From Antennarius striatus (taxonomy: Eukaryota; Chordata; Actinopteri; Lophiiformes; Antennariidae): a DNA stretch of 64,000 nt. The stretch is from assembly GCF_040054535.1 (NCBI RefSeq), contig NC_090785.1, positions 12,004,501 to 12,068,500 on the forward strand. Reading direction: 5' to 3'. The translations under genes were made by a program, and so were the position numbers. Below, piece by piece: positions 6,052 through 63,120 of this stretch. Numbering within the stretch: position 1 is the stretch's first letter; each line of letters begins with the position of its first letter. The notes under the pieces were generated by a model. It did not search any database. It was not told where the DNA came from and saw only the letters and a program-made list of their open reading frames with translations.

Positions 6052-8031
6052 ATGGATTTCCCAGGTCATTTCCAGCATATTTTCAAGGAGCTCAACCACC
6101 AGCGCCGCCATGCTCAAATGTGTGACTGTGTGGTGGTGGTTGGAGGCCAGAGCTTCCAGGCTCACCGCTCCATCCTGGCTGCATGCAGCTCCCACTTCAG
6201 GGCTCTCCTGATCTCCAGCGATAGTAGTGAAAAGGTTGGAGCTGACATAGGTGTAGTTCCTGGTGTGATAAAGTTAGATCCAGAGGTGGTGACCCCAGAG
6301 GCCTTTTCCACCCTCCTTGACATGATTTACACCTCTACTCTTTCATTGGGGGCTTCCAATGTGATGGATGTACTGCTGGCAGCATCAAACTTGCATCTCA
6401 ATACTGTTGTCAAGGCTTGCAAGCTCCACTTGTCCAGGAAGAACTTCCCTTCATCACCACCTAAAGGCTGGAGATCAGTACACCAGCAGCAGCCATGTTC
6501 CCAGGCAGAGAGGCTGGTTACATCCGGCATGAACGAGAAAATCAATGAAGAAGAAGCAGGAGGGGAGGTTAGCCAGTCTGTTGGGTTTGAAGACCAAGGT
6601 ATGAGTAGGAATGTAGTAGGGGAGCACAGCGATCCATTTGTGAGGCACAAGAGAAAGTCACAGGAGGATTTGCTCAGCAGCGGGAAGAGGTCCTGCAGGC
6701 CGCTCGAGGGAAACTTTAGAGAGTGTTTGCCGACTATAACCAGAAGCGCCGTCAATACAGAGGAGCAGGGAGAGGAACTCCTGTCTCCAGACTGCCTGAG
6801 AACAACTGAAAGACTCTGGGACAGCCGAGCTGAGGAGGAGAAATACGAAGCAACAAAGGGAGAGTTGGAGGAGTTCCAGCTGCCTAGTCAGTCAGACTGC
6901 AGCACAGGAGGTGTAATTGTGTGTGAGAAGAGTGGATGCACAGGAGAAAACACTGTGGTCAAAGTGAAGGTGGGGGAGGAAGGAGAAGGTTCTGACGATG
7001 AGCAGAAGATCCCCATCATCGAGGTGAAAAAGGAAAATCAGAACTCCCCAGATTTTGACATGGAACAAAATAGTTTTCCTCTATCTCCACCGCAAGTTCA
7101 CACGGACAATTTGCACATGCCAGGACATGATGAAAAAATAGCCAGCGCCTGTCTGACAAACAGTGATGCTAGAACTTTACAATCTCATTTGTGTGCAGAT
7201 CTCCAAACTGATTCACAAAGAGAGGGTGGCGGTTTGGACCAGGAGTCGGTGGACACAGGTGAAGGCCTGGACAGTCTGTCAGAGTTGACCTTCTCCTGTC
7301 TCCTCAATCCTAGTAGTGAAATAGGAGCTCTGGAAGAAGAGGACAGTCTAGCCAGTCTCACTGATGCTGCTAATGCCGCCGCTGCCGCTGCAGCTGCTAG
7401 CAGCGGTGGACCTGCAGGTGACGGGGGTGAGCAGAGTCAAAACTCGGAGGTCCAGTCCTCTGACTCCTCTTCTCTTCTCTTTCCAGTGCCACAGCAGCTT
7501 CTCCCAACTCAGGTCTCTGGTTTCAGTGACACACTAATCCTCCATCCCACCCATAGTCCCCTGGCAGGGTTTCTGAGTGGCATCCGACCAAGCCTCTGTC
7601 TGAGACCCTCTCTCATCAAACCATCCAGGGCAGGAAAAAGTTCAGCTGCAACGACCTTCCGTCGCATTGCCCCCAAAGTGTCACCTGGATCAGAAACTGA
7701 TGCAGATCATTGTTCTGCAGGAGACGCTTCTGATAAGCCACTTCTCACCAGAGCTTCGGAGGATGTTCTGTCCAAGTGCAAGAAGGCAGCGGCTGAAGAC
7801 CTTGTGCTGCTGGTGGAAGGGGAGAAGAAATATGCCTGTAAAATCTGCTGTAAGACCTTCTTCAACCTGACGGATTGCAAGAAGCACATCCGCATCCACA
7901 CAGGCGAAAAGCCCTATCCATGTCCAAAGTGTGGCAAATGCTTCAGCCAGTCCTCCCATTTATACAAGCACTCAAAGAACACCTGTTTAAACTGGAAGGA
8001 TGATCAGTCATTCCCAGACACCCTGCCCTGA
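6052..8031 (+). CDS. zbtb5: BTB and C2H2 zinc-finger transcription factor ZBTB5
   Basis: A nuclear transcriptional repressor of the BTB-zinc-finger family. The whole 659-residue protein is in one exon, close to the length of human ZBTB5 (about 677). It starts MDFPGHFQHIFKELN, exactly the family N-terminus. The BTB/POZ domain covers about residues 10-120 and contains CDCVVVV and FQAHRSILAACSSHFRALL. The middle is acidic and low-complexity, with an alanine run near residue 440. The motif LTRASEDVLSKCKKA before the fingers is shared with the mammalian protein. Two fingers lie at about 595-616 (C2H2, joined by HTGEKPYPC) and 623-645, where the last ligand appears to be Cys (C2HC), as in human. 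A loop of about a dozen extra residues after residue 57 of the BTB domain is longer than in mammals. AATAAA is at 8303-8308. Confidence 0.96.
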   Translation: MDFPGHFQHIFKELNHQRRHAQMCDCVVVVGGQSFQAHRSILAACSSHFRALLISSDSSEKVGADIGVVPGVIKLDPEVVTPEAFSTLLDMIYTSTLSLGASNVMDVLLAASNLHLNTVVKACKLHLSRKNFPSSPPKGWRSVHQQQPCSQAERLVTSGMNEKINEEEAGGEVSQSVGFEDQGMSRNVVGEHSDPFVRHKRKSQEDLLSSGKRSCRPLEGNFRECLPTITRSAVNTEEQGEELLSPDCLRTTERLWDSRAEEEKYEATKGELEEFQLPSQSDCSTGGVIVCEKSGCTGENTVVKVKVGEEGEGSDDEQKIPIIEVKKENQNSPDFDMEQNSFPLSPPQVHTDNLHMPGHDEKIASACLTNSDARTLQSHLCADLQTDSQREGGGLDQESVDTGEGLDSLSELTFSCLLNPSSEIGALEEEDSLASLTDAANAAAAAAAASSGGPAGDGGEQSQNSEVQSSDSSSLLFPVPQQLLPTQVSGFSDTLILHPTHSPLAGFLSGIRPSLCLRPSLIKPSRAGKSSAATTFRRIAPKVSPGSETDADHCSAGDASDKPLLTRASEDVLSKCKKAAAEDLVLLVEGEKKYACKICCKTFFNLTDCKKHIRIHTGEKPYPCPKCGKCFSQSSHLYKHSKNTCLNWKDDQSFPDTLP

Positions 8032-16339: not shown

Positions 16340-18634
16340 ACACAATCACACATTCAGCCAACCATCTTCCACCGCTTATCTGTAGTCAGGTCAGGGAGGC
16401 AGAAGCTTCAACAGGGAGCCCCAAACTTCCCTTTGCCCGGCCACATCCACCAGCTCTGACTGGGGGATCCCAAGGCGTTCCCAGGCCATTGTTGAGATAC
16501 AACCCCTCCATCTGGTCCTGGGTCTGCACCGAGGTCTCCTCCCAGCTGGACATGCTAGAAACAAATCCCTAGGGAGGAGCCCCAGAGGCATCCGCATCAG
16601 ATGCCCAAACCACGTCAACTGACTTCACGCGAAGGAGCAGCGGCTCTACTCTAAGCCCTTCGCGAATAGCAGTGTTTCTCACCTTATCTCTAAGGGAGAT
16701 ACCAGCTACCCGCCTGAGAAAGCCCATTTCAGCCCCTTGTGTCTGCGATCTCGTTCTTTCGGTCATGACCCATCGCTCATGACCATAGGTGAGGGTAGGA
16801 ACGAAGATCGAACGGTAGATGGAGAGCTTTGCCTCTCGGCTTAGCTCCCTCTTTGTGACAACAGTGCGGTAAAGCGACTGCAATACCGCTCCTGCTGCCC
16901 CAATTCTCATCCAATCTCATGCTCCATTGTTCCCTCACTTGTGAACAGGACCCCAAGATACTTAAACTCCTTCACTTGTGGAAGGACTTCATTCCCCACA
17001 CGGAGAAGGCAGTCCACCGGTTTCCTGCTGAGGACCATGGCCTCAGATTTGGAGGTGCTAATCCTCATCCCCGGCACTTCACAGTCGACTGCAAACCGGA
17101 CCAGTGACTGCTGCAGGTCACAGGCCGATGACGCAAACAGGACCACATCATCTGCAAAAAGCAGCTATGCGATCCTCAGGCCACCAAACTGTAACTCCTC
17201 ACCGCAACTATGCCTCGATATCCTGTCCATGAAAATCACAAAGAGATTTGGTGATAAAGCACAGCCCTGGCGAAGGCCAACAGCTACTCGGAATAAGTCA
17301 GACCTACTGCCGAGGACCTCTCGCAGCTCTCACTTTGGGCGTACAGGGATTGGACGGCCTTGAGGATAGGCGCCCTCACCCCATACTCCTGCAGTACCTC
17401 CCACAGTATATCCTTTGGGACCCGATCGTACGCCTTCTCCAAGTCCACAAGACACATGTAGACTAGATGGGCTTACTCCCAAGCCCCCTTTAGGATCCCT
17501 GCCAGAGTAAAAAGCTGGTCTGTTGTTCCACGACCAGAGCCGTCAGCATTTCCGGGCGAATCTCATCAACACCTGGGGCTTTGTCACCTTGAAGTTGTTT
17601 AACTACCTTCGTGACTTCGCCCCGAGAAATTGACTTGAATGCCCCATCATCCTCCAGCTCTGCCTCTGCAACAGAGGATGGGTCAGTTGGGGTAGTTGGA
17701 TTCAGCAGTTCCTCAAAGTGCTCCTTCTACCAACCGACAATGTCCTCAGTTGAGGTCAACAGTGTCCCATTCTTGCTGTATAATGCTTGGATGGTCTCCC
17801 GTTTCCTTCTCCTGAGGTGTTGGACAGTCCTCCAGAACAACTTTGGTGCCGTCCAATAGTCCTTATCCATGGCCTCTCTGATCTCCTCCCACACCCTCTG
17901 TTTTGCCTCCATCACAGCCGAGGCTGCAGTCCTTTTGGCCTGTTGGTACCCTGCAACTGCTTCAGGAGTCCCCAGGGACAACATGCCCCTGAAGGCCTCC
18001 TTCTTCAGTTGGACGGCTTCCCTGACCACTGGGGTCCACCACGTTGTTTGAGGGTTACCACCCCTTGAGGCACTCAAGACCTTGAGACCACAGCTCTCAG
18101 CTGCAGCTTCAGCAATGGAAGCTTTGAACATCGACCATTCAGGTTCAATGCCCCCAGCCTCCACAGGGATGCATGAGAAGCTCCTTCAGAGGTGTCAATT
18201 GAAAGCCTCGCAAACAGAGTCCTCTTCCAGACATTCCCAGTTCACCCGTACCACTCGTTTGGGCTTACCAGGTCTATCCAAAAGTTTCCTCCGCTAACGG
18301 ACCCAACTAACCACCAGGTGGTGATCAGTTGACAGTTCTGCCCCTCTCTTCACCCGAGTGTCCAAAACACACGGTCAAAGGTCAAATGATACGAGCACAA
18401 GATCAATCATTGACCTCCGACCAAGGGCGCTCTGGTACACTTATGAGCATCCTTGTGTTCTAACATGGTGTTAGTTATGAACAATCTGTGACTAGCACAG
18501 AAGTTCAACAACATAACACCACTCGGATTTAAATCAGGGAGGCCATTCCTCCCAATCACGCCCCTCCAAGTGTCTCCATCATTGCCGATGTGTGCATTGA
18601 AGTCCCCCAGGAGAACAATGGACACAATCACACA
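16340..18634 (-). mobile_element. 5'-truncated RTE-type LINE with 13-bp target-site duplication
   Basis: The body is 16353-18621 on the minus strand. In the element's 5'-3' order there are the end of an APE-type endonuclease ([14 protein letters not shown], about 18600), the linker region (about 17730-18165), and reverse transcriptase with DKAPGVDEIRPEML (about 17560), a VDLEKAYDRVP-type block (about 17440), the polymerase aspartates just before LFASSACDLQ (about 17140), KEFKYLGVLFTSEG, and the 3' region with RRPRCRPRTRWR and WERLGIPQSEL. Several frames are broken. It ends with a GATAAGCGG-type RTE 3' end near 16380. The direct repeat ACACAATCACACA at 16340-16352 and 18622-18634 defines both insertion points. 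I call it RTE clade (Rex3-like) from these protein blocks; the exact family is not certain. Confidence 0.85.
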
Positions 18635-19700
18635 ATGACAGAAAATATTGCAGGCTGTTTGGGCTGGGGCTCTGGATCAATGCCTGTTTGGCTTTAGCCA
18701 GTGATGCATCTGTGAAGTGTGTGCCATTGTTTAAATGGCTCAATTTAAAGAACATAATGTGGAATCAGCTCTTTTGGTAGTACTTTTATCAAGTGTTATG
18801 TTTTACATGGGATGGCCTCTACCCATTTTGTACCTTTGTCTACCATTACCATGATATATCTACATTGTCTGGTCCCACATCTGTGTAGTGTTATGACAAT
18901 ATCTTGCCAGGGGGGCATTTGGCATTGAATAGGAACCTACCAGTCTCTTGTAGGGGAAGGTGCGGCTGTAGCTGTTGCAGGTTACACAGTCAAAGTTACA
19001 CAGGGATTTGAACACAAAAATTTGAATAGTTTGGATAGCTAAGCAAATACTTTTGTCAATATAGTGTACATCGATCCATCCAAGCATACATACACACATA
19101 TGTATTTGTCATATTATAAACCACAACATTTCACATACATTAATACCTACATGTTGCTGTGGTTTGTTTAATTAAGTTTATCTATAAATAGAATCACCAT
19201 TTGCATGAATTACTATTCGAATAGTGATTTATTTGTTTTTTATTTCATTTTAATTTTTTTATTTAAAAAATCACTTGAATCACTATTTGATTCAAGTAGT
19301 CAATTTAAGTAATCAATTTACCTATTTTTTTAAATTTATTTTTTATGGTCTTCCACATCTCAGACTATACTAATCAAGAGTGAACCCTGCAAGATCAACG
19401 CGCAACACACAAAAAGCCTATGAACTACCAATGCTCCAGGCTGCTTCCCACACGTTTGACAAATAAAAATAGACGATTGATTATGATCATTATAGATATT
19501 GGCCATGGTTCAATTTTTTTTGCAAATACAGAGTAGTTATTATGATAATAATATTGTATTTTTAGTTTAGTTTGTATTTCTGTGCACGCATTGAATAAAT
19601 TACATTCCAACAACACCGTTCCATTTGTGACACCGTTTTGCTTGTGTGTGACGTCATTGTCCTCTCCTTCTCCTGCAGTCCGTTGTCCTCGTCCCGTCTA
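18635..19700. other. Unassigned intergenic sequence
   Basis: AT-rich, with short internal direct and inverted repeats around 19200-19340 (TCAATTTAAGTAATCAATTTA-like). No exon or named element recognised. Confidence 0.4.
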
Positions 19701-23900: not shown

Positions 23901-26900
23901 GTTGCACCCATAACTTCAACTGTTAACCCTCTTATAACATATCTTACACATAACAAGGGCTGAAACGTAACTCAACACATGTAAAGCAAATTAAAAGTGA
24001 GCTGGGGGGGGGGTGCATTGGTGTGTTGGACAGAGAAAGTACCGGGGGGTAGTGCATTGGTGTGTTGGACAGAGAAAGTACCTTAAGTGGATAGCAGAAT
24101 GGATGAAGAGTTGTTTGAAACAAGGGAGAATGTCCTACCAGAGCTCTGTATCAACCTTAACAACATTACTATTTATATAATAGTTATTGATTTGTTTTTT
24201 TACTTACCGGTATATTAAATATTTTTTCCATTTCTTAACTTTTTATCCCTTCATTTGTCTCCATTTTCCTATCATTTATGTATGTTTATGATTATTGTAT
24301 AATTTTGTTATGACTGTAAATGAAAAATGAGGAATGACACAATGATTATAAATGGAACAATGTCTTCACAGCTCAATGTAAATATTTGAAACAGAACCAA
24401 AAATTATTTGTTCTCAATGTGACGACTCCTTAACCATCTGCAAAGAGGGAGATGTGGAGAAGCTGAGACGAACACAGTATTTTAACTCTGCTTCACGTCA
24501 AGCATCATGACAAACACTTGTAATAGCTACCGTATCAGCCCATGTTCACCCTCATGAGGTTAGATCACACTTACAGTTGTTCACTCTCTTAACTCTGATT
24601 TTCCTCCAGTCTCCTCACCCAAACCATTGCTAATTTACAGTGAATGACTATCTTATACCTCCCTGTGTGATCATTTGTCTGATGATGTTAACTTTCTTAG
24701 TATTTGCTTTCTTCTCTTGATCTTCCTGATTTAATCATTGTAGGTTATTTTCTTGTGTTTTTTCCCACAGTGGATTTAGTGTAACCTCAGCTGAGGACAC
24801 CAGAATCTTTAAGCCTGTATCCATGCAGACCATGTGGTGAGTGACAGCGGATTAACATGTTGATGTTAAAGCGTCAATGCTTTTACTCTGGTGCCCATGC
24901 TCCTTTCATAACTTTGTGACTGTGTTGCCCCCTTCTGACATATTTCTTGACAATTCTTAATTCATGTGTCTCGCTTTCCTTGTCCATGTAAGGTCAGTGC
25001 TGCAGGTATTGCATGGCTGCTGTGAGCGAGCAGTAAAGGCAGCAGTGATTCCAGGCAATGGCCTGGAGTGGGCTGAGCACTACAAGAACCACATAGAGTC
25101 AGACCGCTTCTGCCTCAATGAGTGGGAGTCCATGTCCGACCTGGAGTCGGTTCGCAGGGATAGTGATGGACAGAGGTACAAAAAAGAAACATAGCTCAAA
25201 ACTGTAGTTACCTTAGTCATATGGTACTCAAGTAAATAAATTGAAAGTTTTAATTTGTTCATATTAGAAGTGCAAACATGTCAGCTTGTACCCAAGTTTC
25301 ACATGTACTGTACTGGAAGCTCGGCAGACAGACTCTCCAATGAGGCGCAGATCAAAGAACACCTGAGAGACATAATGAGCACTGAAGACCTGGACAACCT
25401 TACTTCTAAGATGGTAAGACATGTGAGTCAATGTAGAGAGGAAGTCATCTTAAATGTAGTCAGAAGTGTTAAAACACTGATGAGAAAGATTAAAAAGCAA
25501 AAGAATTTATGTGTCTATAATCAGATTTGTCTGTTACTATAGGTGCACACTGCTTTGCAGACCCGGATGAGCTTTGACCTCAGACCCTATAAGGAGTACA
25601 TTGACAACGAGATCATCGTCACCATGGCTCAGATTGACAAGCCCTCCAAAATATTTGACTACCTCTACCTGGTAACAGCTTAGCTTTAAAGACAGCTCTA
25701 AACTTTCTTTGAAAAATTCTGTTCAAAAGCCCTTTTGTGCTTTAGTCAATATACTGACGGAAGTGTGTTTCCACCCAGATGTTGTCATATGACTTTAACT
25801 TCCCCTTTGTGGGGCTCTGCGCTGGCAGCGATAGGGAAGATAACTCTGTGGGCTCTTTCCTTTTTGTCTTCTCTGGCCTCAGCTTAACCTTTTTCTTGTT
25901 ATCTGCTGTCAGGGCTCTGAGTGGAATGCTGCTAACTTTGAGGAGTTGCAAAAAAACAAGTAAGTGTTTTGACCTGCAACATGTACGTCAGCTCTGTTTA
26001 TTGTCCTCCTGCTCTGTTGTCTCATGACATGGGTAATGCTCATTTGAGCATTGTGTTTTACTGAGTAACACCATGGCTCTAAGTTGGAGTCTGTATGCTC
26101 AAAGAAGGGTATGTAGACAGGCAGAGCGCAGGTGGGGCAAAACCAAACTCCAGGTTCATTATGAAGACAGTCTTGACATCTTCAACCAGGAATGGAAAAA
26201 TGCAACACAATCATTTTTCTCAGAAGTTATCAATAGAAACAGTAATAATGCTCGCACACTGTTTTCGGTTGTAGACAGACTGACAAACCCCACAGCATCA
26301 GTCTCTTCTGAGCTGTTGTCCAACAAATCATGCAATGACTTGGCAGCATTTTTCACGGATAAAATATTACAGATAAGACAAAAAGTAAGCGTTTCTCCTT
26401 CAGGAAAAATCACAATGTAACTTGTACCATACAACTTTGAAAGAAACTGTTTTAAAGTTAAAATCCACAACAGGCTGCCTTGTTATGGTGCCTTCAAAAT
26501 TTTTCTAAAATGTTTTTAACTGCATTGCTCCTAACTTATTACTCATAGTGAATAATTCTTTACAATCAGGGCAGTTTCCCCAGGCCTTAAAAACTGCAGT
26601 AATAAAACCACTTATAAAATATGCCCAACCTGGATACTTCAACAATAAGTAACTACAGGCCTATATAAAATCTTCCTATTTTGGGAAAAATAATGTCTCT
26701 TTCAACAGATTCACAATTTTATGATGCAAAACAATCTCTGTAATGCATTTCAGTCTGGATTTTGACCACACCACAGCACTGAGACTGCACATATTAAAGT
26801 CTTAAGTGATATACAGTACATACTGTATCAATAATGACGCCTTCGAAACCACCGTCCTGGTATTGTTGGATCTCAGTGTTGCATTTGACATGATTGATCA

Positions 26901-29900
26901 TCCTGCATGACAGACTAGAACAGTGGGTGGGACTCACTGGCACCTAGTTAAATTGATTCAAATCTTACTTGCAAGATAGGGACTACTTTGTCTCAGATTG
27001 TAGTCATGAGTCCGTGCGAACGAAGATCAGATGTGGGGTCCACAAGGGTCCATTCTAGGACCACTTCTATTTAATATCTACTTGCTGCCCCTTGCTCAGA
27101 TCATGGAATACCACAACATCTCCTATCATACTTATGCAGATGACACACAACTTTACATTTCAGTGTCAGCACAAGACTATAGTCCCTTTCATTAAGCAAT
27201 TGTATTCATCAAATCAATAAATGGATGTACCAAAATTTCCTCAAGCTCAATCCAGACACGACAGAAGTGATTGTTTTTGGCCCCAAAAATGAAAAATCAA
27301 AGATCAGTGCTCACCTTGACTCCATGTTATTAAAAGCTACAAATCAAGCCAAAAATCTTGGTGTAATTATAGACGCAGACCTGAATTTTACCAGCCATTT
27401 AAAAGCTATTAATAAATCTGCCTATTACCACATGAAAAACATAGCTTGAATAGAGGGTTTTAAGGGAATCAAGGGAAAACCTTGTTCATGTTTTCATTTT
27501 CAGTAGGATAGATGACTGTAACAGTGTCCTTACCGGTCTACGTAAAAAAATCAGTCAGGCAGCTGATCCAAAATGCTGCAGCCAGAGGCCTTACAAACAG
27601 CAATAAACTGGACCACATCACACCAGTCCTTAAATCACTACACTTGGTTCCTGTGAGTCAAAGGATAGATTTTAAAATTTTACTGCTGGTCTACAAATCT
27701 TTAAATGGTCTGGGACCAAAATATATGCAAGATTTATTAGTTCCCTAATCATTAGCTTCACTTTGAATATTTTATTCTCCTGTTTAATTGCCTTTTTCCT
27801 TTTACACACTTTTTTAATTGATATTTTATTGTCTTATTTTAATCCCCTTTTGTCTTCTAAATGTTCTTGTATTTCATTGTCTTTGTAAAGCAATTTGAAT
27901 TGCCTGTGTATAAATTGTGCTATACAAATAGACTTGCCTTGCCTTTTCAGTGTGGGCTACATTCTAAATGTGACTAGGGAGATTGACAACTTTTTCCCAG
28001 AGGCCTTCACTTATATGAACATCAGAGTCTATGATGTGGAGACCAGTGACCTCCTCTCTCACTGGACAGACACGTATAACTTCATCAACACCGCAAGGTA
28101 CTACTGAAGCCTTAAACACCAGAAAACACATACAATGCAAAGTAATGTTTCATTTCTTATGTTTGTTCAATTATAAGACATATAAGATATAAGACACGGT
28201 CATATTAACATGGATATGATTCATTTATTTGCAAGTGCTCCAGTTGGCCCTGTTCGACAAGGGAAATTGTCGACCCACTAACTCCCCCTAAAAAACAATG
28301 AATGCAGATAGTAGATGGGAACATTGGTAACGGTCCCACATCCATCCTCTGGATGTGATGCTGGACCCAAAAGATGCTTAGCTTAGCATGAAAAGAGAAA
28401 GCGGCGGGAAGTAGAGTCCTTTATAGACCACAAAATGCTGGAGTATTTTTATCTTTTTGCAGTTGGCAGGAAATTAGAAAATAATCCCAAATGAATGCAA
28501 CTATTAAACAGCTTGAAGGGTGTTCAAGTATATCTGGCAGTTTATGCATTCTAACGTCACCAACCTTGACAACAGTGACTAATGAATGCTAATGTAGTGA
28601 GTTTCTCTTGATACCTCTGCAGAAAGAGTGGACAGGCGGTGTTGGTGCACTGTAAGATGGGTATTTCTCGCTCTGGGTCTACGGTGGTCGCCTATGTCAT
28701 GAAGCAGCAGCACTGGCCGCTGGACGTGGCTTTGGCCTTTGTCAAGGAACGGCGATCTATCGTCAAGCCCAACGAAGGTTTCATGAAGCAGCTTCAGACA
28801 TACAATGGCATCCTCAAAGCAAGGTCAGACATGCTGTTAGGCCTGATGCTGGATTTATTCCAGAAGGTCCAATAACACAAAAGAATTGTTTGCTTTTTAT
28901 AGAGATTTCTAGGAGCTTGTTTGAAGGTTATGTGGTGCATCATTACAGCGAGCAGCGTCACAGTGCACTCTGGAGGCGAAAGTCTAGAGACCAAAGACAG
29001 AAGTCAGTACACAAGAAGGAAAGAGGGGAGGAAGAGGAACCCAAAGCGGATGGAGAGGAAGAGGAGGAGGAGGAAGAGGAACTTGATGAAGATGAGGAGA
29101 GTTCAGATGAAAAAGATGATACAGAGGAAGAGTCAGAGGTAATTAGTGACTTTAGTGAACCAAATCAGTACTTAAAGCGCTGTAGTTCGCTAATTATCTT
29201 CCCAAACACAACCAGGTGTTTGAAGAGCCCGACTCCCGGTTTGATACTAACGATGCATCTCAGCAGATGGAACCACCACGAGCCAGTCCTGTTATCACAA
29301 TAAATGAATCAAGAAATGAAGTGGAAAATGTGAGCAGACATGACCTCACTCAGACATACTGCATTGGAAGTATGTTTATCCATCATGCCTTTTCAGTACC
29401 TTTCTATTTTCTCATTATGTTTTTCAGCTCAAGGTAGCTCCGAGTGTTAATCGTAGTGGCAGGATGAACCTTTTCTCCCTCATGCAATCCATTAGTGAAC
29501 TGGAGGATTTGGATAAAGAACAGGTAACTGAAGCAGAGTTTTTCCTAATCTCATGCTGTTTGATACTTGACATTACGATCCAGTGAGAGGTGGTTAATTT
29601 TCATTGTTGCTGCCTGTTTAAAGATTTTAAACAAAACAGATGGATTTCCCTCATTTTTGTACCAAACGAATATTTGTTCCCAAATTGTATTTTCCGCACT
29701 ACAAGGCGCACTGGACTATAAGGCGCACACAATAAAAAATAAATAAAATTTATTTGATAAACTGCAGCGGCTAAGGTTGCGCAATCGGTCCACTAGATAG
29801 AGCCGCGCTGCTCAGGCAGTCATGATTGCATTCATAACTCCTTTGAATGGCTCCTATTGTTATGTCAATTAGCCATTCTGAGCCTCATCAAGGAAGCCTT

Positions 29901-52383: not shown

Positions 52384-55300
52384 TTATAAGAAGTTTAGTT
52401 TCTCAGAAGTGTAAACACTTGTGGATTCAGAGGTGTCAGTGTCTAGAGGCAGCGTGGAAAGATATTGTTGTGATTTGTTGCCCCTTTCTTTGCCTCCATT
52501 TTTTTTGATCTGAAACTGAACGCAGTCCTCAGAGGAGTGGAGACAGTCTGAAGCCCCGGGTACAGAGAAGGAAATCATTCTATCTTTCTCATTAGTTGTG
52601 TCCTGCTAAGAAAAAATGAAGAGGTGTTTTAATATTTGTTGATAACATACAAACAGCCCCAGCTCAGTTATGGTATTACCTCAGCAGTTGAATTGTGAGA
52701 AGGGGAGTTTGCAGCTGCTGATCTGTGTACTTCCTGGTTCTGTGATCTCGGGGTTCCTACCATAACTGGACTGTAAGCCTGGAAAACATAAACAGTAACA
52801 TGGTTCACTCACATGATACTAACAACTTAAACAAAAACACAAAACCTGCCATCTCTTTTAACTCATTTAAATTGTCTTACAGAGTGACTTGGACTGGGTC
52901 TCTGGGTCCATTTTCTTGGCGTTCCAGGCTGTTGAGAGTGACTGTAGAAGCCTGAGGGCTGAGGCTGGCTGTAGTCCTGTAGAGACGAACATACAGACAC
53001 ATTAAGATCAGAGCTAGGACTTCCTCTGTGGAGATTAGGAGGGAGAGAAACAAGACAAAACATGTTGAACTTGATCATGAATCATTCAGATTCCTTGTTT
53101 TTCTTTTGGATCACACTGATTTTTCACATTATTATAGTGAAGTTAATGTAGATGCCCAAGGGTTTTAGAGTAGCATACCCAAAGTTTGCTATTAGCACCC
53201 CAGTGCTTTGTAAACCACTGAAAGCTGTGTCTTTGAATGAGTTCTTTGTCAACGATCCTATTATTTAAATTCAAAAAGCACTAAGGAAAAAGTCAAGCTC
53301 CACAATGGAAAGATTTATAAAGAAGCAGGTTCTTTTAACGGCCCCATTAATACTATTTTGTAATTAATTTAAATCTACCCATATGTCATACATTACATAA
53401 CCCCAAAGCTACAACACCCATCGGTATTCAATTATAATCCCTCCTTTTTATTCATTGCTGCCGACAAAAGTGAAGTTTTCTTTCATTGGGTTGTTTTGTT
53501 TCATGTTGCACAAAAACTCAGTTGTTTTTGTGCAACATGACACAAAAACAACTGAGTGGACCACAAAAGGTTTTTTTTTTTTGTAGCTCCAGATAATCGA
53601 CTATAGTAATGTCACTCAAGCTTATGCTGAAATTAAAATGTAATCATTTGTAGAAAACATAAAACCAGCATGACTAACTTACTGGCCATATTCTCTCACC
53701 TGAATGTTCACCCTAGGAGGGTTAGCTGGTGGTGCACGGTTTCCTCTAAGGCCACCAATGATCTGTGAGAGGCTGCAGTATGGGTATCTTTTCATGAAGA
53801 GGATGAAACCGGCCAGTGACACAAACATACCAGAAGGGACAGTGATAGACTTGAGGAGGGCTCGCCATCTGCCACCTCTTTCTAGATAGAGTGGCGTCAC
53901 AGAGACAAGACAGATATTAGAAATGAACAGAATGTGATGAAGTAAAACAACACCCAAACACACACTGCCACTCACCAATCACATGTAATGTGGTAGAGGA
54001 GACCAGGTTGCCATTTCCATCTTTGATTTCATACAGCCCATCATGCCTTGAGGTGAGTCTTCCTATGACAACCTCGTTGACGGTGCCATTCCTGCCCAGA
54101 GAGATGAGGCCCCTGTAGCGTATGTCATGGTCTGTTATGTGGCCCTCTCGGATTAGCTGAACAGAGCCACGGGGAGGCTTGTAGTCAAAAGGGCCCAAGG
54201 AGGATTCATCAGGGTGTCGGGAGGGGGTAAAAATGAGGTTGGCATGAGGAACAGGAAGAAATAGGGGCAGGTTTAGAGATTCCTTGGTGAAGCGTGTGAT
54301 GTTGAAGTAGTGCCCTGAACCCACATGCAGGATCATGAACATAGAGGGGAGCACACAATCAAAGGTACGGGAGGGTGTTAGATGGGAAAGGAAAGAGAAA
54401 GATAAATATTACACTTAAAGTTAAGATTAAATTAATATGTCAGCTTGTTAAACCTTGTGCTGTCATGTTAGTCTCTGCTCACCGCGGACAGTGAGGGTCC
54501 TTCGGGAAAGAACGTTCCCCATGCTGTCTCTCACAGTGAAGTTGCCTTGGTCTGATTGCGTCACCCTGTCAGCTACCCAGACCTTCCCGCCCTTTATCAG
54601 CCGTCCCCTGCCGGTACTGCTGGTCTCAGGATCTGTCCGATTCCACAGCACAACTGGCATGGACATCGGCGGAGCACCACGGAGAGTAAACTCCAGGATC
54701 GTGCCATTTTCAGGGATGTTGTGCTCAAAGTTTTCCCCATAGTTTCTGTAGTAGGACTTGGTGCATTCTGAACCAGAGCAGAGCAGAAACGGGTTAGAGG
54801 AGTCCTCAATTCTTCATCAATTCATCCATTTTAAACTTAATATCATGTAAGTAAAACCAAACTTTTACTATTACTGATTATATTATCAAATCCATTTACA
54901 GGCCAGTTAAACAAATAATTTTTGTTACAGACTAAACGCTTTAGATTTTGATTTTGAAACTTCTACAGGGGAAATTTTGCACCAGTTACAAAACCATCAA
55001 AGAGACAGGTCATTGTAATAAAACTGATCAATTTCACAAGCAGGTGAAATTACCTTGAACCATCAGGTAAACAGTTTCGTAGGTGAATCCGGATGACAAT
55101 TTGATTGCATAGAGTCCCTGATCATCATGAGACACTTCTCTCAGGACTAACATCCTATCTCTGGTCCACTCGAACCGTGGGTCCATAACCTACAGATGCA
55201 TATTAACAGGTTTTTGACACCATGGTCACACATTAAACAGAAAAAAGACAAACCACAACACACTTTTTCCTCACAATAGTGTTCTCCAGCAGGACTCGCC

Positions 55301-57242
55301 TCGGCCCCTTAGAGTCCGGTTTAAAAGTTACTGTTCTGGATGTTGAAAACACAGGCAGACGAAATTCCTTCCCAGCACAGACCATCTGGGCTTCTTCTCT
55401 GTCACCTATCAACGAGGAAAATTAAGTTAGCAACCTCTTCAGAAAATACATTTTGTTTGTGAAGGATGCTTGATGAAATATGACATTTCACTTACCTAGT
55501 ACGACCCAACCTGCAAGGAGAGGAGAATGTGCATTGTGATTGATGGACCTGAGCACAACACCTGAACCTTATTACAATATCATTGAAGAAATGATGATAC
55601 AGTTTCTATTTAAAATTTTAAAGAGGTTATAAGTGGTACAGTAAAAAATGACTTCAATATTGATTATAAAATGTGTTTGTCCCCAAAGGATCTATTCTCA
55701 CACCTCTTTTATTTTCACTACATACTCTCTATTCTCAGGAAACAAACCTGGAGGCATTAAAGAGAGAGAACCCTTAACTTTTAATGTACAAATAACTTGT
55801 CTGTCAAGATTAGATGAACTGAATCCTAAAACATAAAACTATTATGCATACCTAATGTAAGTGTTGCCATATTCTATGTGTGCAAAACACACTTGGCTTT
55901 CATAGAGTACATATTTTTGTGTAATAAACAAATAAATACAAAATTAAATAGAAGTACTCTAAATCCATTTGTTAGGGTTATAATATAATCAGGGACAAAT
56001 TAATATCCTCACCAAAGGACCTGTGTGTCCATCACAACTTTGTGCGATGGACAAAATGGTCTGTTTTTTGGACGGTCAACCTGTCGAGGTCAGGTGAAAA
56101 GAGCTCTCCAATGAAGCTCCACTATAAGTTACTATGCTATATACTATGTTCACTATATACTATAGTATTTAGTCTAATTCTGAGGCTTAAAAAAACAAAA
56201 CAGAAAAGACTTTCAAGGAATTAAGGCTCTCTTTTCAGGACATGCAAACGACAAGCCAACACTACCATGTATTGATCTATTTTGAACTCTGTCCATTCAC
56301 AAATATACTGTAGTTCTATGTCATTGAGGTGTGGATCCATTCAAGATGTTCCCAAACAATCAATAAACTCCTGTATTCAAGTAACATATTTGTGTCTGTG
56401 TTGTTGTGAAGAGACCTTTCACTGTTCTGGTCTTGCAACTTCATTTTGGCTATTTACATGTATTCATCCTGCACATTTGATTATATCGGTTTTCATTCAT
56501 GTATATTTACTATTAGCTCTTCTCATTTTTTATCTTTTAACACATTAGATAGCACAATTACACATTCCAGCCTTCAACATAGTGTTTTTTATCTCCCCAA
56601 AACAAGGTCAGAAAAATACTAGACCCTAAATGTCAAAAACAGCAAATGAAGCACCTCATGTGTCAACCCTTATGTCGTGGGGAAATACACACCCTCAATA
56701 AAAGTATGACCTCTGACTTTCTGCTTCAAGACTGACTGAGATTTACTTTGCTATTTATCAACAAAATATCTGTAAATGCTTATAACATAATAAATGAAAT
56801 CTAATGCTAATTGATTCCATCCATGAATTAATGATGCATAAATGATTTAATTTGCATTTAGAATTTAACACAACCCTGAGTAGCCTTGCGAGAGAAATCT
56901 CTTCTTAATTATCGACTATTAATATTAATGAAAACGCGTCACCAAACACAGAAACACAGATTAAATAACACCAGTGAAATCAAACACCGTGTAAACAGAT
57001 AAACACACACAATGTGACAACCTACTAGTATTTTTCGAAAGAGTACATTGTAACTAACAAATAAAACATTATTAAATATTTATTCAGCATTATTTAAGAT
57101 ATTATTATAACACATGTACATCAAATAAGGTTCTACTATACCATTTTTTGGAGAACTCACCCACAGCGAGAGGAAAAGTGAGCAGGGCAGCCAGCAGCAC
57201 AGAGGAGGACATCTTGCGTGAAAACAGATGAGCGTGTTTCAT
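52384..57242 (-). CDS. Uncharacterised Ig-like type I membrane protein, paralogue A
   Basis: I do not recognise this gene. Ten exons fit: 57161-57242, 55496-55510, 55275-55405, 55054-55189, 54483-54767, 53976-54314, 53700-53881, 52881-52976, 52680-52778, 52384-52602; 1584 nt, 527 residues, phases closed. The start gives a signal peptide (hydrophobic core SSSVLLAALLTFPLAV); a second ATG ten codons in would also serve. The ectodomain (about 30-340) has three Ig-like segments with DDQGLYAI, SDQGNFTV and SRHDGLYEI, the usual DxGxY F-strand signature, but no Cys in that strand. The only two ectodomain cysteines are Cys42 and Cys123, bracketing the first domain. N-glycosylation sequons include NRTD, NFTV, NITR and NGTV. 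The membrane helix is about 341-358. The 170-residue tail is rich in Ser, Pro, Gln and Tyr (DYSQPQPSGFYSHSQQ). Exon 2 is a 15-nt microexon. Cell-surface recognition is an inference only. Confidence 0.8.
53502..53557. repeat. Overlapping, mutually exclusive hairpins in an intron
   Basis: A perfect 16-base arm at 53502-53517 pairs with 53524-53539. The overlapping 17-base segment 53516-53532 pairs perfectly with 53541-53557. Only one can form at a time. It lies in the intron between exons 53700-53881 and 52881-52976 of paralogue A. Confidence 0.88.
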
Positions 57243-58062
57243 CTACAAACACAGAGATACGCAGAGATTATCATCAATCCTCTCACCCGAAAACAAGCCG
57301 CTGGACGTGCGCCCATCGATCAACAGGCCCGAGGTGACCTTCGATACGATTCCGGTGACGTTTCTCTATCACCGACACGCACGCAGACGGCTATAAACCC
57401 TGATCAATACTGTAATACTGTATTCCAGTCTGATCCATCACGCCCTGTGCGTTTTGCAGTCACGTCCACTCAGGTTTCCAACATGTTTCCAGCCTGTGAC
57501 CGGTGTCCACCGTTTGGCACTGATGTGATTCGATGCAAAGGTCTTTGCAGCACCGCGTCGGGACTCACCTGCAGAATGCACGAAGAATAAACCCACCGCT
57601 GTTTGTCCACCAATGTTGACGTGAATAGAATTTAGCTGATACTAACGAGCTCTACGAAGCGCGCATGGGCACTGGAGCCCGTCTCTAATTTGTGTGAACG
57701 GTGAAGTGTATTCCCAGTCGATGCTACTACGCAAGATGCGCCACACGCTTTTCACTGCGGTCGCGCCATCTACACTCCGCGCTCGGGATCTGCGCTGAAA
57801 AATCAGCTGAACGTGGACGTCGATGCGTTTTCCAAAAGTCACGTGTTCTGGTATTTTGTCTTTACGCCATCATCTCCACAGGATGCGCCGATACACACAA
57901 AGAGGAAGTGCGTTAATTGCGTTAAACCAACAAGTCACAGCAACATGAACGTAAACACACACTGATGCACATGATGTTATGAGCCGAATTGCTTTAAACA
58001 CATTTTACTGATAATGCGTGACCTAAATACTATATGACCAACGTTAACTTATTTTCTGCCTT

Positions 58063-58063
<1 letters not shown>

Positions 58064-58151
<88 letters not shown>

Positions 58152-58257
58152 TAATAATAATAATATTAATAACAACAACAATAATAATACTATTATTATT
58201 AGTAGTAGTAGTATTAGTATTAGTATTATTATAATAGTATTATAATAATAATAATAA
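58064..58257. repeat. (TAA)n/(AAT)n microsatellite
   Basis: About 28 nearly perfect TAA units to 58147, then interrupted TAA, AAC, ATT and AGT units. Confidence 0.92.
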
Positions 58258-58274
58258 TGTGTGTGTGTGTGTGT

Positions 58275-58419
58275 GAGCGTGCGTGCGTGCGTGTGTCCTT
58301 TTGAATCAAACAATTAAAAAATAAATGAAATGAAAGAAATGAAGAAAACACACAATTTCTGTCATTACATTACCTTAATCTTTTTCTTTCAGTGCGTTTA
58401 AACTTGTGAACTCATTTTT
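58275..58419 (+). repeat. Direct duplication, left copy
   Basis: Starts GAGCGTGCGTGC after a GT run, continues through CCTTTTGAATCAAACAATTA and ends at GTGAACTCATTTTT. It matches 59152-59292 with only a 4-base indel and about two substitutions. Confidence 0.93.
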
Positions 58420-58997
58420 TTATTTATTTTTTTATTTTATTTTATAATAATAATAATAATAATACAATTATTATTATTATTATTATTAATCATACTAATG
58501 CTAATGCTAATAATAATGCTAATAATAATAATAATAATAATAAAAGTGAATGAAGTTAGGTCAAGCGTGACCTGACCTGACCTTTACAGCTGATCGTTTT
58601 AGTGTTTGTCTTTGCAGGAGAAATCTACAGTAGGTATTACATTAAAAACATAAGCATAAAACAGTCACAGCATCATTCTATACTTATTACATTTTAGATT
58701 TAAGTTCAAATTAATGTATACGATTGGAACATGAATGAAACGCATTCACGTTTCACTGAGAAATATTACGTTTTCTGTTTTGGCAGTGGTTCAAACTGTT
58801 TGTCTATTTGTGAATTTTGGAAGAAAGCAGTTAAATCCATGAGGATTCGACTTGTGGACGGGATGGTTCGAGTCCCGGGTGGACCACAGTGGATGTACCG
58901 TCAGTGGACCAGAGGACACTGGTGAAAAATGGCTGCTCAAAGGCAAAAAGCTGTGCAGTGGGGTCCCATCTGTTGAATCCTCAGTCATGGTTTTGTA

Positions 58998-59151
<154 letters not shown>

Positions 59152-59292
59152 GAGCGTGCATGCGTGTGTCCTTTTGAATCAAACAATTAAAAAATAAATG
59201 AAATGAAATAAATGAAGAAAACACACAATTTCTGTCATTACATTACCTTAATCTTTTTCTTTCAGTGCGTTTAAACTTGTGAACTCATTTTT
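59152..59292 (+). repeat. Direct duplication, right copy
   Basis: Matches 58275-58419. The homology breaks at CTCATTTTT, after which the left copy runs into T-rich and TAA sequence and this one into CTAGTGTACC. Confidence 0.93.
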
Positions 59293-59620
59293 CTAGTGTA
59301 CCTGAACCCCTCTCTGTCGAACCAAGGTCCAGCGCCTTCGAAACAACACATGCGCAGTTTGCCTACAAATGGCGCAAGTATGACGCGCGGTGTGCGTGAA
59401 AGAAGCCTCGCCCAATTGACTTTCCCGTCCTGAAAAACACACCGCACAAGACAGACTGTAACAAGGGAAAGGAATTTATAAGTGAGTTTATTTACACGTT
59501 TGTCTCACAACATTTGAGAACCTGTCGATGTTCCGTGTTGTCCGTTCCGACTTGAGCGGAACGAGGCGGTCATAAGACAGCTGATTTACGCGCTCCAAAT
59601 GTTTCCTTCCTCTACAGGAC

Positions 59621-62600
59621 ATGTTACTGTTTTTCCTCCCCGCTTGCTGCGTCTTGTTCGGTGAGTATTTATCCATCCTTACGCGTTTCGACGGGTTCAG
59701 TCCACTTGACCATTGCGTTGAAACGGTCTCAAAATCTCCTTCGAGTTTCACCCGATACAGAAAGGATGTCAGCTGGTAGGTTACAAACTGTTTTACAAAC
59801 TTAATCTAATATTGGATCATACGGGATTCGTTTTTATCATCTGACACAACAGGATCTCTGCCAGGAACTCCAGATTTACATGTCTGCATAATGTTTGCAA
59901 AAAAAACAACAACAAAGACAAGATGTTCACATTATTTACTAAATGCTTTGCTGTACAACCCCATACACAGTAAGCATTAGTTTCCAGTCAGTAATACATA
60001 AATATATCAATAAACACTTATCAATCCTGTCCTAAAATGTATTAATTAGAAACCACACAGAGCGGAGACGTCCACCAAACACCACACTTTTCTACAACAA
60101 ATCGATGTGACAGTGCACGATTCGTTTATTCCGTATTGGTGATGGTCATCCATGAGGAGATCATCAGCATCTGTCTCGGTGTGTCTTCATTACATCACAC
60201 TCCATGGTTATAGCACCGTGATGACGTCACCTACTCAGACCTGCGTCACGCCTACTTGAAGCAGCTCGATTTACAGCTCGCATTTGGAATCACTGGGTTG
60301 TTATGAGTAGTTATCACTAATTATTAGTAGTTATCACTACTAACTAGTTAAAGAGAAACAAAATTATTATTTACATTTTAGCATAGTCATTTACTGGAAA
60401 TACTATTACTATTACTACTATTAATGCTATACTACTCCTATAATTAATGCTACTACTACCATATTACTACTATAACTACTACGACTACTACTACTATTAT
60501 TCATACTATTATTAATCAATCAACCTTTATTTATAAAGCGCTCATTCACATCAGCAGAAATATCAAAGTGCTTTAACAGACAGAGAAAACCCAACTGGAC
60601 CCTCCGGAGCAAGCCTAAGCAACAATGGTGGGGAAAAACTCCTTCACTGAGGAAGGGCCTCCGGGTAGGACCCAGACTCTGGAGGGCGGTCATCCACCAT
60701 GACCGTTTGGGTGGGAAAGGAAATAGAATCGGGATAGAGACAGGACAAAGGAGAGAGAGAGAGAGACAGAGAGAGTGGCAGATAGGCCAGATAGAATTTG
60801 CAGTCCTAATTGTGCTGTAGTTTACCACTTTTAATACTACTGCTACTACCACTACTACTATTACTATTATTACTACCACTATTACTACTACTGCTATTAC
60901 TATTACTTCTGCTACTACTGTCACCACTACTACTACTACTACTACTACTATTACTACTACTATGTAATAAATGTACTAATGGAAGATGCCGTAGTGTGTT
61001 TTTCATCCAGCCCACACTGAACCAAGGGTTATGTTTGTGGGATTATATTTGAGTCATTTAACAAAGAAACCGCAGCAGTGAGTGACAATCCAGCTTGACT
61101 TTGGTTGGATGAAAATAAATTCATTACTCATTGAAAAAAAATTCATAAGTCATTGCTCAATTTAGTGTAATGCTTTATGTCTCTTTCTTGTGTACAAAAC
61201 ATTTCTATGAATAATGACCTTGTTTTGAGTAGAGCAATCACATATTATCGCATAATATTTCTCCCAGTATGTCTGTGCAGGACATTCATACAGCAGCATG
61301 CTCTTCTGATTTCTCTGTGAATACACTCACCGCAATATTCCATCTTTCTCTTCTCCATATTTGTCTTCCTGGTAGGACGTTCATTTGCTCAGTCTGATAG
61401 AGCACAGAAATGCTATGGTGACAGCTACACTTTACCGTTTCGGTACTCGCCACTTTTGTTCAAGGACAAGCTGTACTTCACCCCGAGTACGGGGGGGTCC
61501 AGGAGGTTGGTGCTGGACAAGGGGAAGGTGAGCAACTTCTGATGCATTCATTTTATACTACAAGGTGTATTGCTATAACATCATTGTTCAAGTTGGAGGA
61601 ATGTCTGGTGTTGAATGAGGACAGGATGATCTCTGTCTTCAGTAAATTAGTTCATTGATTGTTTCATTGATTCAGTCTGTGGACCCACGCTTCAAAATAT
61701 CCTATGACTCAGTGGAGTTTACAGATCTGAGATACAGCGACGCAGGAACGTTTTCAACAGTGAACTCATACGTTAATTATCATCGTGATGTCATCAGTCT
61801 GAAAATTACAGGTAAGAACACATTACATTTTATATTAAATTAATCTATTCCAAATAGTAAGTATGTATTCATATTAGCTGTTTAAAGATTACATGAAGCC
61901 TTTTTCTTAATGTTCTTTTTCAGATTGTTCTACCAAAACTGTCAAGTATTATGGCGACTCATACTCCTTTGACGTACCTAGACAAGCAGAATATCTGGAG
62001 TATGCTCCTCTTCAGTCTCCGGAGCAGACGACGGTCCTGTGGAATCGCACAGACTCTTCTGTTTCTGACGGAGGCCGAGGAAAGCTGAGATATAGTTCCT
62101 GGAGGTTCACCCAACTCACGCCGGGAGATAATGGCTACTACAACTTAAGGGCAAAAGACAACAGGCTGGTGTCTAGGTTTCGGTTTACAGTAGAAGGTGA
62201 TCTTATGGACTTGACATTAGCTGCATGCTAATCTGAATAAATTTTAATGTTAAAATTCTACTTTTTATCATGCAGAAAAGGAAGTATACTATGATGTGAT
62301 GGTGAATGATAAGCTCCTCATCAACAATCCATCAACCGATTCCTCATGGTCAGTGGATTTTACCCCAAAGGGCGATTCCGAGCCAATAGCACTGGTACGC
62401 GAAGGAAGACTTATCTTAAGTCAATGGGATACTATGGCTTTTGGAGACAGAGCTTCTGTCTTGATTGAAGGCATCGAGATTGCTCCTGTGGAACTTACAG
62501 AAGCTGGCACCTATGTCTTCAGAGATTCCAAAGGTTACCAGGCCCAGACAGCATTTGTGTCGGTAAACTATGGTGAGCAGCGTTATTTTTTATGCTTTAG

Positions 62601-63120
62601 AAAGAGAAAGTGTCTGACCATTTGCTAAACTAACCCTGCCATTGTATTCTGCTCTTACAGAACCAACTCCTACATTTGTTTATGTTGCTATTATTGCTGG
62701 TGTTATCCTTGGGGTCCTTGTCATCTATTGCTGTATGAGAAAGTGTTGTTGTAAAAAGAGCTCCAAAAGGTCCGCTGCGGCGCCTGCTACGTATTACCGT
62801 GTAAGTACTGCTTCTAGTATGCATTCATACTTAATATTTACAATATTCTTACTTCAACATGCTTACTCCAATTGCAGGATCAGAGTCAGCCTGAACACCC
62901 AAGTAACTCTGCTGCACCAGCAGCCCCAAGTTACTCTGCTGCACCAGCAGCCCCAAGTTACTCACCAGCAGCCCCAAGTTACTCTCCTGCACCGGCGGCC
63001 CGGAGTTACTCTCCTGCACGAGTGGGCCCAAGTCACTCTGCTGCACCAGCTGAAAGTTTCTCTTATTCCCCACTGAATCCCACTGATCCTAACACATCGG
63101 TATGTTATTCTCTTTGCTGA
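59621..63120 (+). CDS. Uncharacterised Ig-like type I membrane protein, paralogue B
   Basis: Not recognised, but clearly a paralogue of the leftward gene at 52384-57242. Exons: 59621-59660, 61376-61527, 61676-61811, 61924-62196, 62276-62572, 62661-62800, 62878-63102 or reading on to the stop at 63120 (427 residues). Introns are GT-AG and phases match those of paralogue A; the third exon is 136 nt like its counterpart. Signal peptide MLLFFLPACCVLFG. The ectodomain holds three Ig-like segments with YGDSYTLPF, SVDPRFKISYDS, SDAGTFST, VLWNRTDSSVSDGGRGKL, GDNGYYNL, ALVREGRLI and EAGTYVFRDSKGY. As in paralogue A it has just two ectodomain cysteines, Cys26 and Cys111. The membrane helix is about 305-325, followed by a CCMRKCCCKK cluster, a likely palmitoylation site. 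The tail repeats AAPSYS/PAAPSYS units. GTATGT at 63103 is a good donor, so a further exon may lie beyond and the C-terminus is provisional. Confidence 0.8.
60360..60966 (-). repeat. L2-like LINE 3' fragment flanked by ACT/TAC microsatellites
   Basis: Positions about 60514-60790 start CAATCAACCTTTATTTATAAAGCGC, continue with TATCAAAGTGCTTTAACAGA and AACTCCTTCACTGAGGAAG, the reverse complement of a common fish LINE 3' end of L2 type. ACT/TAC trinucleotide repeats flank it at about 60400-60510 and 60835-60965. The whole block is in intron 1 of paralogue B. Confidence 0.55.

Follow-up and report, generated by a model that had tools for sequence, protein, structure and literature searches.

Two diverged immunoglobulin-type receptor genes with few cysteines and a common tail end in the frogfish Antennarius striatus and other fishes

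The locus and its two genes

We analysed a stretch of 64,000 nucleotides from Antennarius striatus (contig NC_090785.1, positions 12,004,501 to 12,068,500 of a 548 Mb genome; hereafter the window) and focus on two genes, A and B, that lie head-to-head near its end. In gene models with consensus splice sites their start codons are separated by 2.38 kb, in line with a preliminary description of this DNA that had placed two genes on opposite strands about 2.4 kb apart. Gene A occupies 57242-52384 on the minus strand and has ten coding exons for 527 amino acids, and gene B starts at 59621 on the plus strand and extends past the end of the window, where its last coding exon (64237-64425) was located by tblastn against the downstream DNA. 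The A model is identical to the NCBI Antennarius striatus protein P0011 (527/527 amino acids); exons 1-9 derive from the splice-site model, and exon 10 was placed from its open frame and the identity to P0011. The B product is 100% identical to NCBI protein P0001 across 96% of the query. The NCBI records of both frogfish proteins carry only the label 'uncharacterized'. Judged by sequence comparison, A and B are real genes and diverged paralogues. The counts below refer to alignments of 60 A proteins (of 120 listed matches) and 68 B proteins (of 118 matches in the B list).

The coding exons of gene A measure 82, 15, 131, 136, 285, 339, 182, 96, 99 and 219 nt in order. The first (57161..57242), supported by the splice model and the identity to P0011, encodes a signal peptide and ends in phase 1. 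It is followed by a microexon of 15 nt (55496..55510; residues WVVL), which is present in the NCBI model P0011 and has no counterpart in the gene B model; most of its residues seem to be missing from the salmonid and pike A proteins compared. The two halves of the first immunoglobulin (Ig) domain (D1) are encoded by exon 3 (55275..55405), with a cysteine, Cys42, found in 57/57 aligned A proteins, and by exon 4 of the splice model (55054..55189; 136 nt), with the blocks DPRF and DQGLY. According to the splice model and the alignments, exon 5 (54483..54767) begins with Cys123 and encodes the second domain (D2), including VLWNRTD and Arg201. Exons 6 and 7 are supported by the splice model and AlphaFold; the former (53976..54314) encodes the third domain (D3) and the latter (53700..53881) a stalk, the transmembrane helix and a juxtamembrane segment. 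The tail is contributed by exon 8 (52881..52976; splice model), exon 9 (52680..52778; splice model and motif counts) and exon 10 (52384..52602; open frame and P0011), which carries a conserved C-terminal module to VYTSEKLNFL and the stop codon.

Gene B has exons of 40, 152, 136, 273, 297, 140 and 222 nt within the window. Exon 1 (59621..59660; splice model) encodes a signal peptide, and most of the B relatives compared start with a similar sequence, for instance MLLLYMTVSCVLLGSS; P0001, an isoform X2, has another start (MSAG) and no signal peptide. Exon 2 (61376..61527) covers the first half of D1 with Cys26 (Cys16 in P0001), exon 3 (61676..61811; 136 nt, splice model) its second half, and exon 4 (61924..62196) D2 with Cys111 (Cys101 in P0001) and VLWNRTD. 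Domain D3 lies in exon 5 (62276..62572) and the transmembrane helix, with a juxtamembrane cysteine cluster CCMRKCCCKK, in exon 6 (62661..62800), both in agreement between splice model and AlphaFold. This cluster is conserved in the aligned B proteins and is probably palmitoylated. A proline-rich tail with AAPSYS repeats is encoded by exon 7 (62878..63099; splice model and P0001). Several such repeats are present in frogfish B, as first noted, but the nine other B proteins compared show one PSYS-like unit at this place. The end formerly given for the gene, 63120, has to be corrected, because the frame there reads through the donor site after 63099 and the true next exon is the one outside the window, which tblastn and P0001 show to encode the conserved tail end ...HVYNSAKLNFISEVH. 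The last residues of frogfish B, ...LNFISEVH (64411-64425), form an extension; nine other B proteins end in ...LNF or ...LNFL.

The claim that both genes have the same exon plan holds for the 136-nt exon and for the phases of the shared exons (1,0,1,1,1,0,0), and fails for the microexon, which only A possesses. The blocks VLWNRTD, DPRF and REG are likewise present in both proteins.

Fold and cysteines

Structure prediction of both proteins, which had been named beforehand as a check, gave three Ig domains each in AlphaFold, with disordered tails. In blocks of ten residues the predicted local distance difference test (pLDDT) of the Ig domains is mostly 84-96 for A, exceptions being one block of 78 in domain 2 and, in domain 3, blocks of 50 and 73; for B it is mostly 91-97, with lower blocks down to 69 (overall pLDDT 68.9 and 73.2, predicted template modelling score 0.50 and 0.58 for A and B, respectively). 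In Foldseek searches both models match pIgR best (5d4k_B; E = 1.1e-17 with A and 8.8e-15 with B). AlphaFold and Foldseek agree for both in predicting type I membrane proteins with Ig folds, as had been proposed. The profiles of D1, D2 and D3 match one another (hhalign 96.8-97.1%, E = 5e-11 to 3e-10), so an internal triplication seems to have given rise to the ectodomain. In sequence searches A alone has one match among PDB sequences (VEGFR2, E = 0.33), and profiles give weak generic Ig matches. A viral mimic was also considered; a profile scan of viral contigs yielded 37 pattern matches with 0 confirmed, and the candidate was rejected, as the structural matches to viral Ig proteins are generic.

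In nearly every protein, all three domains have other residues in place of the canonical disulphide between the B and F strands and of the C-strand tryptophan, a known kind of exception within the Ig fold. The cysteine sites are taken by other, mostly hydrophobic residues, the commonest in A being V, I, I, V, L and I; they are more mixed in B, where the B-strand site may be Phe, Ser, Tyr or Glu in D1 and Tyr or Asn in D3. Phe occupies the tryptophan site of D1, D2 and D3 in 56/60, 60/60 and 60/60 A proteins and in 67/68, 54/68 and 62/68 B proteins, respectively. The earlier observation that the F-strand cysteine is absent from all three domains of both proteins is borne out, and so is the retention of the DxGxY-type motif, whose sites are conserved except in D3 of B, where Ser replaces Asp in 59/68.

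Two cysteines had been described in each ectodomain (Cys42 and Cys123 in A, Cys26 and Cys111 in B), and both columns are invariant wherever a residue is aligned (57/57 and 60/60 in A; 67/67 and 67/67 in B), which is the strongest new support for this point of the preliminary description. Exactly two ectodomain cysteines are found in 50/60 A and 55/68 B proteins, and the remainder have 1 to 6. In the AlphaFold model of A, Cys42 stands where the first D1 strand ends, and Cys123 follows the final strand of that domain and precedes the first one of D2. The invariance of the pair suggests a disulphide between the two that would staple the start of D1 to the D1-D2 junction.

The residue that follows the missing F-strand cysteine is often basic in D2 and D3, and this raises the question of sialic-acid binding as in Siglecs, since the site would correspond to the position of their essential arginine. 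The site of Arg201 in A holds Arg in 51/60 A and 66/68 B proteins, and that of position 314 in A holds Arg or Lys in 60/60 A and 56/68 B. Moreover, the Pfam model Ig_CD22 matches 28/68 B proteins at E <= 0.01 (P0136 with 31.7 against a cut-off of 27 bits), and D3 of A gives a weak profile match to sialoadhesin (E = 0.52). However, the binding domain of Siglecs is the first Ig domain, and the corresponding site in D1 is Lys in 55/60 A proteins and Ser in 40/68 B proteins, with Arg in only 3/68. The conservation of just two ectodomain cysteines also departs from the cysteine pattern of the Siglec V-set domain, and a D2-D3 piece of Chelmon B matched no Siglec among PDB sequences. Because the N-terminal domain is without the arginine and the cysteines differ, membership in the Siglecs fails, and lectin activity of their kind through D2 and D3 would be very unlikely, even if the Siglec-type arginine of these two domains offers a lead.

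Relatives, rates of change and tails

Relatives were counted at E <= 1e-3 among the candidates sharing most words with the query (7999 for A). A search with A found 123 homologous proteins, 120 of them listed, with identities mostly of 70-82% in percomorphs, 56-60% in some of them (Takifugu, Cynoglossus, Echeneis), about 60% in salmonids and pikes and 45-48% in gadids. With B as a single sequence only 10 proteins were retrieved; a profile of 13 sequences led by a B protein gave 161, of which 120 were listed, A-type proteins and Centroberyx affinis among them. Among the 120 listed of these 161 matches, themselves drawn from the candidates with most words in common with the query, there is no B of a salmonid, pike or gadid, which falls short of showing absence. 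The fishes whose placement was looked up (Antennarius, Aplochiton and Lota) belong to the Euteleosteomorpha. An origin of A and B from chance open frames is ruled out by the many conserved homologous proteins. One A-type cluster, P0048, has tilapia as its first name and also carries the label 'unnamed protein product' for Mustela putorius; in view of the first name, contamination or mislabelling is the probable cause.

An unrooted tree of 33 chosen proteins separates 19 A from 14 B sequences (support 100/100), and pikes, salmonids and gadids group with A. As read by eye from the match listings, the gene numbers of A and B are at most 5 apart in 13 cases: Lates LOC108899260/62, Cyclopterus LOC117737629/30, Pseudoliparis LOC130209398/400, Gasterosteus LOC120818285/87, Stegastes LOC103365650/51, Cololabis LOC133446954/57, Dunckerocampus LOC129189433/38, Stigmatopora LOC144207331/34, Thunnus LOC122991104/07 and LOC121901942/43, Pampus PAMP_023674/73, Dissostichus NQZ68_009038/40 and g20968/g20967. 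Elsewhere, for example in Chelmon, Cheilinus, Plectropomus and Mugil, they are far apart. The close numbers imply that the pair is probably old.

B is present in multiple copies in some fishes, with three proteins in Pagrus major, for instance. In Nibea, Siganus and Scortum the predicted proteins P0135, P0148 and P0162 have a B-like part followed by shorter units of D2-D3 type with extra cysteines and end in VY(T/N)SDKLNFL, as A and B do; their sequences suggest that some fishes have a third type of receptor gene downstream of B. Whole-genome searches of the frogfish with A, B and third-type queries, in which exons were seen singly and only the best candidates scored, match A and B exons only (7, 6 and 3, respectively), and no third gene was detected by tblastn in the window or the 38.5 kb downstream of it, the matches off these exons having E = 0.13-0.93. 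On these searches, which scored the best candidates exon by exon, we reject a larger local receptor cluster in the frogfish.

The family was called unrecognised, and indeed the Pfam copy searched holds no model dedicated to it. A newer model for part of it may exist, since P0135 and P0148 bear a precomputed PF27934, which was not reported by our own Pfam scan. FAM163 was dismissed as a match of composition, as its hits (26/68 B at E <= 0.01; P0135 with 30.5 against a cut-off of 28.3) fall on the cysteine-rich membrane segment. A scan with NCBIfam gave nothing useful and Rfam no match. No publication on the family was found among open-licence full texts; the symbol wu:fc21g02, given to the Syngnathus B protein P0180 and presumably of zebrafish style, is mentioned in none of those searched.

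The rates of A and B were compared in 23 hand-picked species with one A and one B protein each (253 species pairs), a sample that left out Plectropomus, Lates, Cyclopterus and others and in which a few comparisons may mix B copies. A is the more conserved in 253/253 pairs for each of D1, D2 and D3, in 249/253 for the transmembrane segment, in 183/183 for the middle tail (70 pairs being dropped for coverage) and in 241/253 for the C-terminal module. Mean identity is 0.79 in each domain of A, and 0.43, 0.46 and 0.38 in D1, D2 and D3 of B; for the C-terminal module it is 0.77 and 0.64, respectively. The ratio of B to A ectodomain distance has a median of 3.73 (interquartile range 3.22-4.46), which measures protein distance and not selection. 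The earlier view of a fast-changing pair thus applies to B, but not to A, whose ectodomain identity averages about 79% in the 23 species.

Alternatively, A could be a conserved protein of homophilic or heterophilic cell adhesion and B a relaxed copy of it, and we regard this structural role as a serious rival, if an unlikely one. The broad Foldseek and profile matches include contactins, Robo, Sidekick and titin, A is conserved, and the tails are proline-rich. Generic Ig matches of this kind do not discriminate, however, and the retention of a C-terminal peptide in 62/68 B proteins shows a constraint on B that persists within the cell.

That peptide, VY(T/N)SxKLNF(L), is common to A and B. The pattern [VI]Y[TNVS]SxK[LF][ND] occurs at the C-terminal end of 53/60 A and 62/68 B proteins, compared with a maximum of 1 and 0 in 200 shuffles. 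Mean identity between A and B is 0.27, 0.35 and 0.20 in D1, D2 and D3, 0.12 in the transmembrane and juxtamembrane part and 0.19 in the middle tail, and rises to 0.39 in the C-terminal 59 residues and 0.70 in the last 12. The tails, about 160 residues each in the frogfish, have therefore diverged in their middle part as described, but not at their ends, an agreement that was missed because the last B exon lies outside the window. A second tail element, YxP[VLIM], is found in 44/60 A and 41/68 B proteins, against means of 4.7 and 8.1 and maxima of 10 and 15 in the shuffles.

Some of these elements resemble the immunoreceptor tyrosine-based inhibitory motif (ITIM) or switch motif (ITSM). Strict ITIMs in A (17/60) stay within the shuffles (mean 11.8, maximum 21), but a loose form that allows Thr at position -2, chiefly [ST]GY[STA]PV, is present in 42/60 (mean 14.5, maximum 26) and the ITSM pattern in 24/60 (mean 2.1, maximum 6). 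In frogfish A the Y-x-P-V element SAYSPV, which straddles the junction of exons 8 and 9, is a strict ITIM match. For B the strict and loose forms each reach 29/68, the strict one above its shuffles (mean 12.8, maximum 22), with none in the frogfish protein. From these patterns A may well carry a docking site of ITIM/ITSM type, which speaks for A as an immune-type receptor, not for pairing.

The preliminary description likened the two to paired immune-type receptors; A and B would then bind similar ligands and send opposite signals, A inhibiting through this element. In the definition of PMC3533184, paired receptors are expressed on immune cells, have closely similar ectodomains and signal in opposite ways, one side with an ITIM and the other with a short tail and a charged transmembrane residue. 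That A and B are head-to-head neighbours of one family, that B changes fast and is multi-copy in some fishes and that A carries the loose ITIM and ITSM patterns would fit. However, the ectodomains are dissimilar (mean identity 0.20-0.35 per domain), a charged transmembrane residue is found in 0/60 A and 6/68 B proteins, an activation motif (ITAM) in 0/60 A and 0/68 B tails, and no activating part is seen in B; both tails are long and share their C-terminal peptide. The dissimilar ectodomains, the rare transmembrane charge and the missing ITAM argue against activating and inhibitory pairing, which we consider quite improbable. What had been observed is in this way partly confirmed, and what had been concluded is partly supported.

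The surroundings of the two genes were recognised by eye from open frames. We assign a BTB-domain gene to 6028-8028, an exon of a slingshot-like phosphatase to about 28.6 kb, V-ATPase subunit a exons to ~37-44 kb and prpf19 exons to 47-50.5 kb (minus strand), followed by A and B; past the window end there are presumably a tmem109-like gene (67.4 kb) and rnf40-like exons (~72-81 kb). In human, PRPF19 and TMEM109 adjoin, and no Ig gene is known between them. The A-type predictions P0094, P0107, P0124 and P0126 contain WD-repeat Pfam domains, two of them being named Pre-mRNA-processing factor 19, and these fit a prpf19 gene adjoining A. A 165-nt direct repeat (58258-58422 and 59131-59295; 873 bp apart, 97% identity) lies between A and B, surrounded by TG and TAA/TTA microsatellites. 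Open frames at 16572-18676 and ~26000-27450 appear by eye to be reverse-transcriptase/endonuclease fragments like those of long interspersed nuclear elements.

Interpretation and relation to known receptors

We lean slightly towards the reading that A and B are two old paralogous receptors which share an intracellular partner, A having a stable ligand and B being under changing selection. The ectodomains would consist of three tandem V-like Ig domains, born by internal duplication, with a hydrophobic core in place of the B-F disulphide and a single disulphide (Cys42-Cys123 in A) stapling the start of D1 to its end at the D1-D2 junction. A common cytoplasmic partner may dock on the shared C-terminal peptide, perhaps upon tyrosine phosphorylation, and both tails have a YxP(V/L) element inside the cell, which in many A proteins takes an ITIM/ITSM-like form. 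The ligand of A would be a stable self molecule. B, with its probably palmitoylated cysteine cluster as an anchor, keeps its tail end while its ectodomain changes quickly; its fast ectodomain and multiple copies in some fishes are what changing selection on a recognition receptor would lead one to expect. Either receptor may have an immune role.

Several observations weigh against this preferred reading. To our knowledge the C-terminal peptide matches no SH2, PDZ or PTB consensus, so that the argument for a shared partner is one from conservation. The YxP[VLIM] element is absent from 16/60 A proteins (both gadids and Aplochiton among them) and from 27/68 B proteins. The ITIM/ITSM-like element of A, with the ITSM in 24/60 A and 0/68 B, would suit a phosphatase or SAP-type partner of A's own better than a shared one. 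Finally, the faster change of B may reflect relaxed constraint.

A bolder version, which we think rather unlikely, is that these are disulphide-poor Ig triplets that reach the same partner through their common C-terminal peptide, A being frozen and B, fast and variable in copy number, sensing variation in pathogens or self, possibly in a lectin-like manner through the F-strand arginine of D2 and D3. If true, this would be an undescribed receptor system of fishes. The family is widespread in fishes, including farmed species. With its asymmetric pair one could test cleanly how a receptor that changes fast retains its tail end while the ectodomain drifts, and how Ig domains remain stable with no more than a probable junction disulphide.

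Among known systems, the pIgR ectodomain and FcmR have V-type Ig domains in tandem, and pIgR is the best Foldseek match of both models. However, identities are 12-19% with TM-scores of 0.23-0.28, generic Ig matches follow closely, and A and B have three domains without canonical disulphides. The V domains of pIgR and CD300 contain the canonical and an extra disulphide, and none of the conserved cysteines of this type is seen in the A and B alignments. In domain 1 of the IL-1 receptor family a disulphide joins the N-terminal strand to the domain end, as proposed here for A and B; that family differs from A and B in keeping the canonical disulphides and in its TIR domain. Siglecs and CD22 are alike in the missing F-strand cysteine with a basic residue just after it, here in D2 and D3, and in the Ig_CD22 matches of some B proteins, but A and B do not have the arginine in the N-terminal domain and have few cysteines. 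Fishes regularly hold four Siglecs (Siglec1, CD22, MAG and Siglec15), according to PMC7226832. The teleost NILTs and SITRs are also Ig-type receptors. NILTs are described as combining an ITAM or ITIM with one or two V-type domains, and by this description A and B are set apart by three cysteine-poor domains and no ITAM. With paired receptors (KIR, LILR, PILR and others in PMC3533184) they share the arrangement as neighbouring type I Ig genes and the ITIM/ITSM-like element of many A proteins, and they differ in that no activating part was found, in the dissimilar ectodomains and in the shared tail peptide. A and B are conserved and undescribed within the literature searched, yet are receptors of the immunoglobulin superfamily, and what is unusual about them is their economy of cysteines, their shared tail peptide and the asymmetry of their rates.

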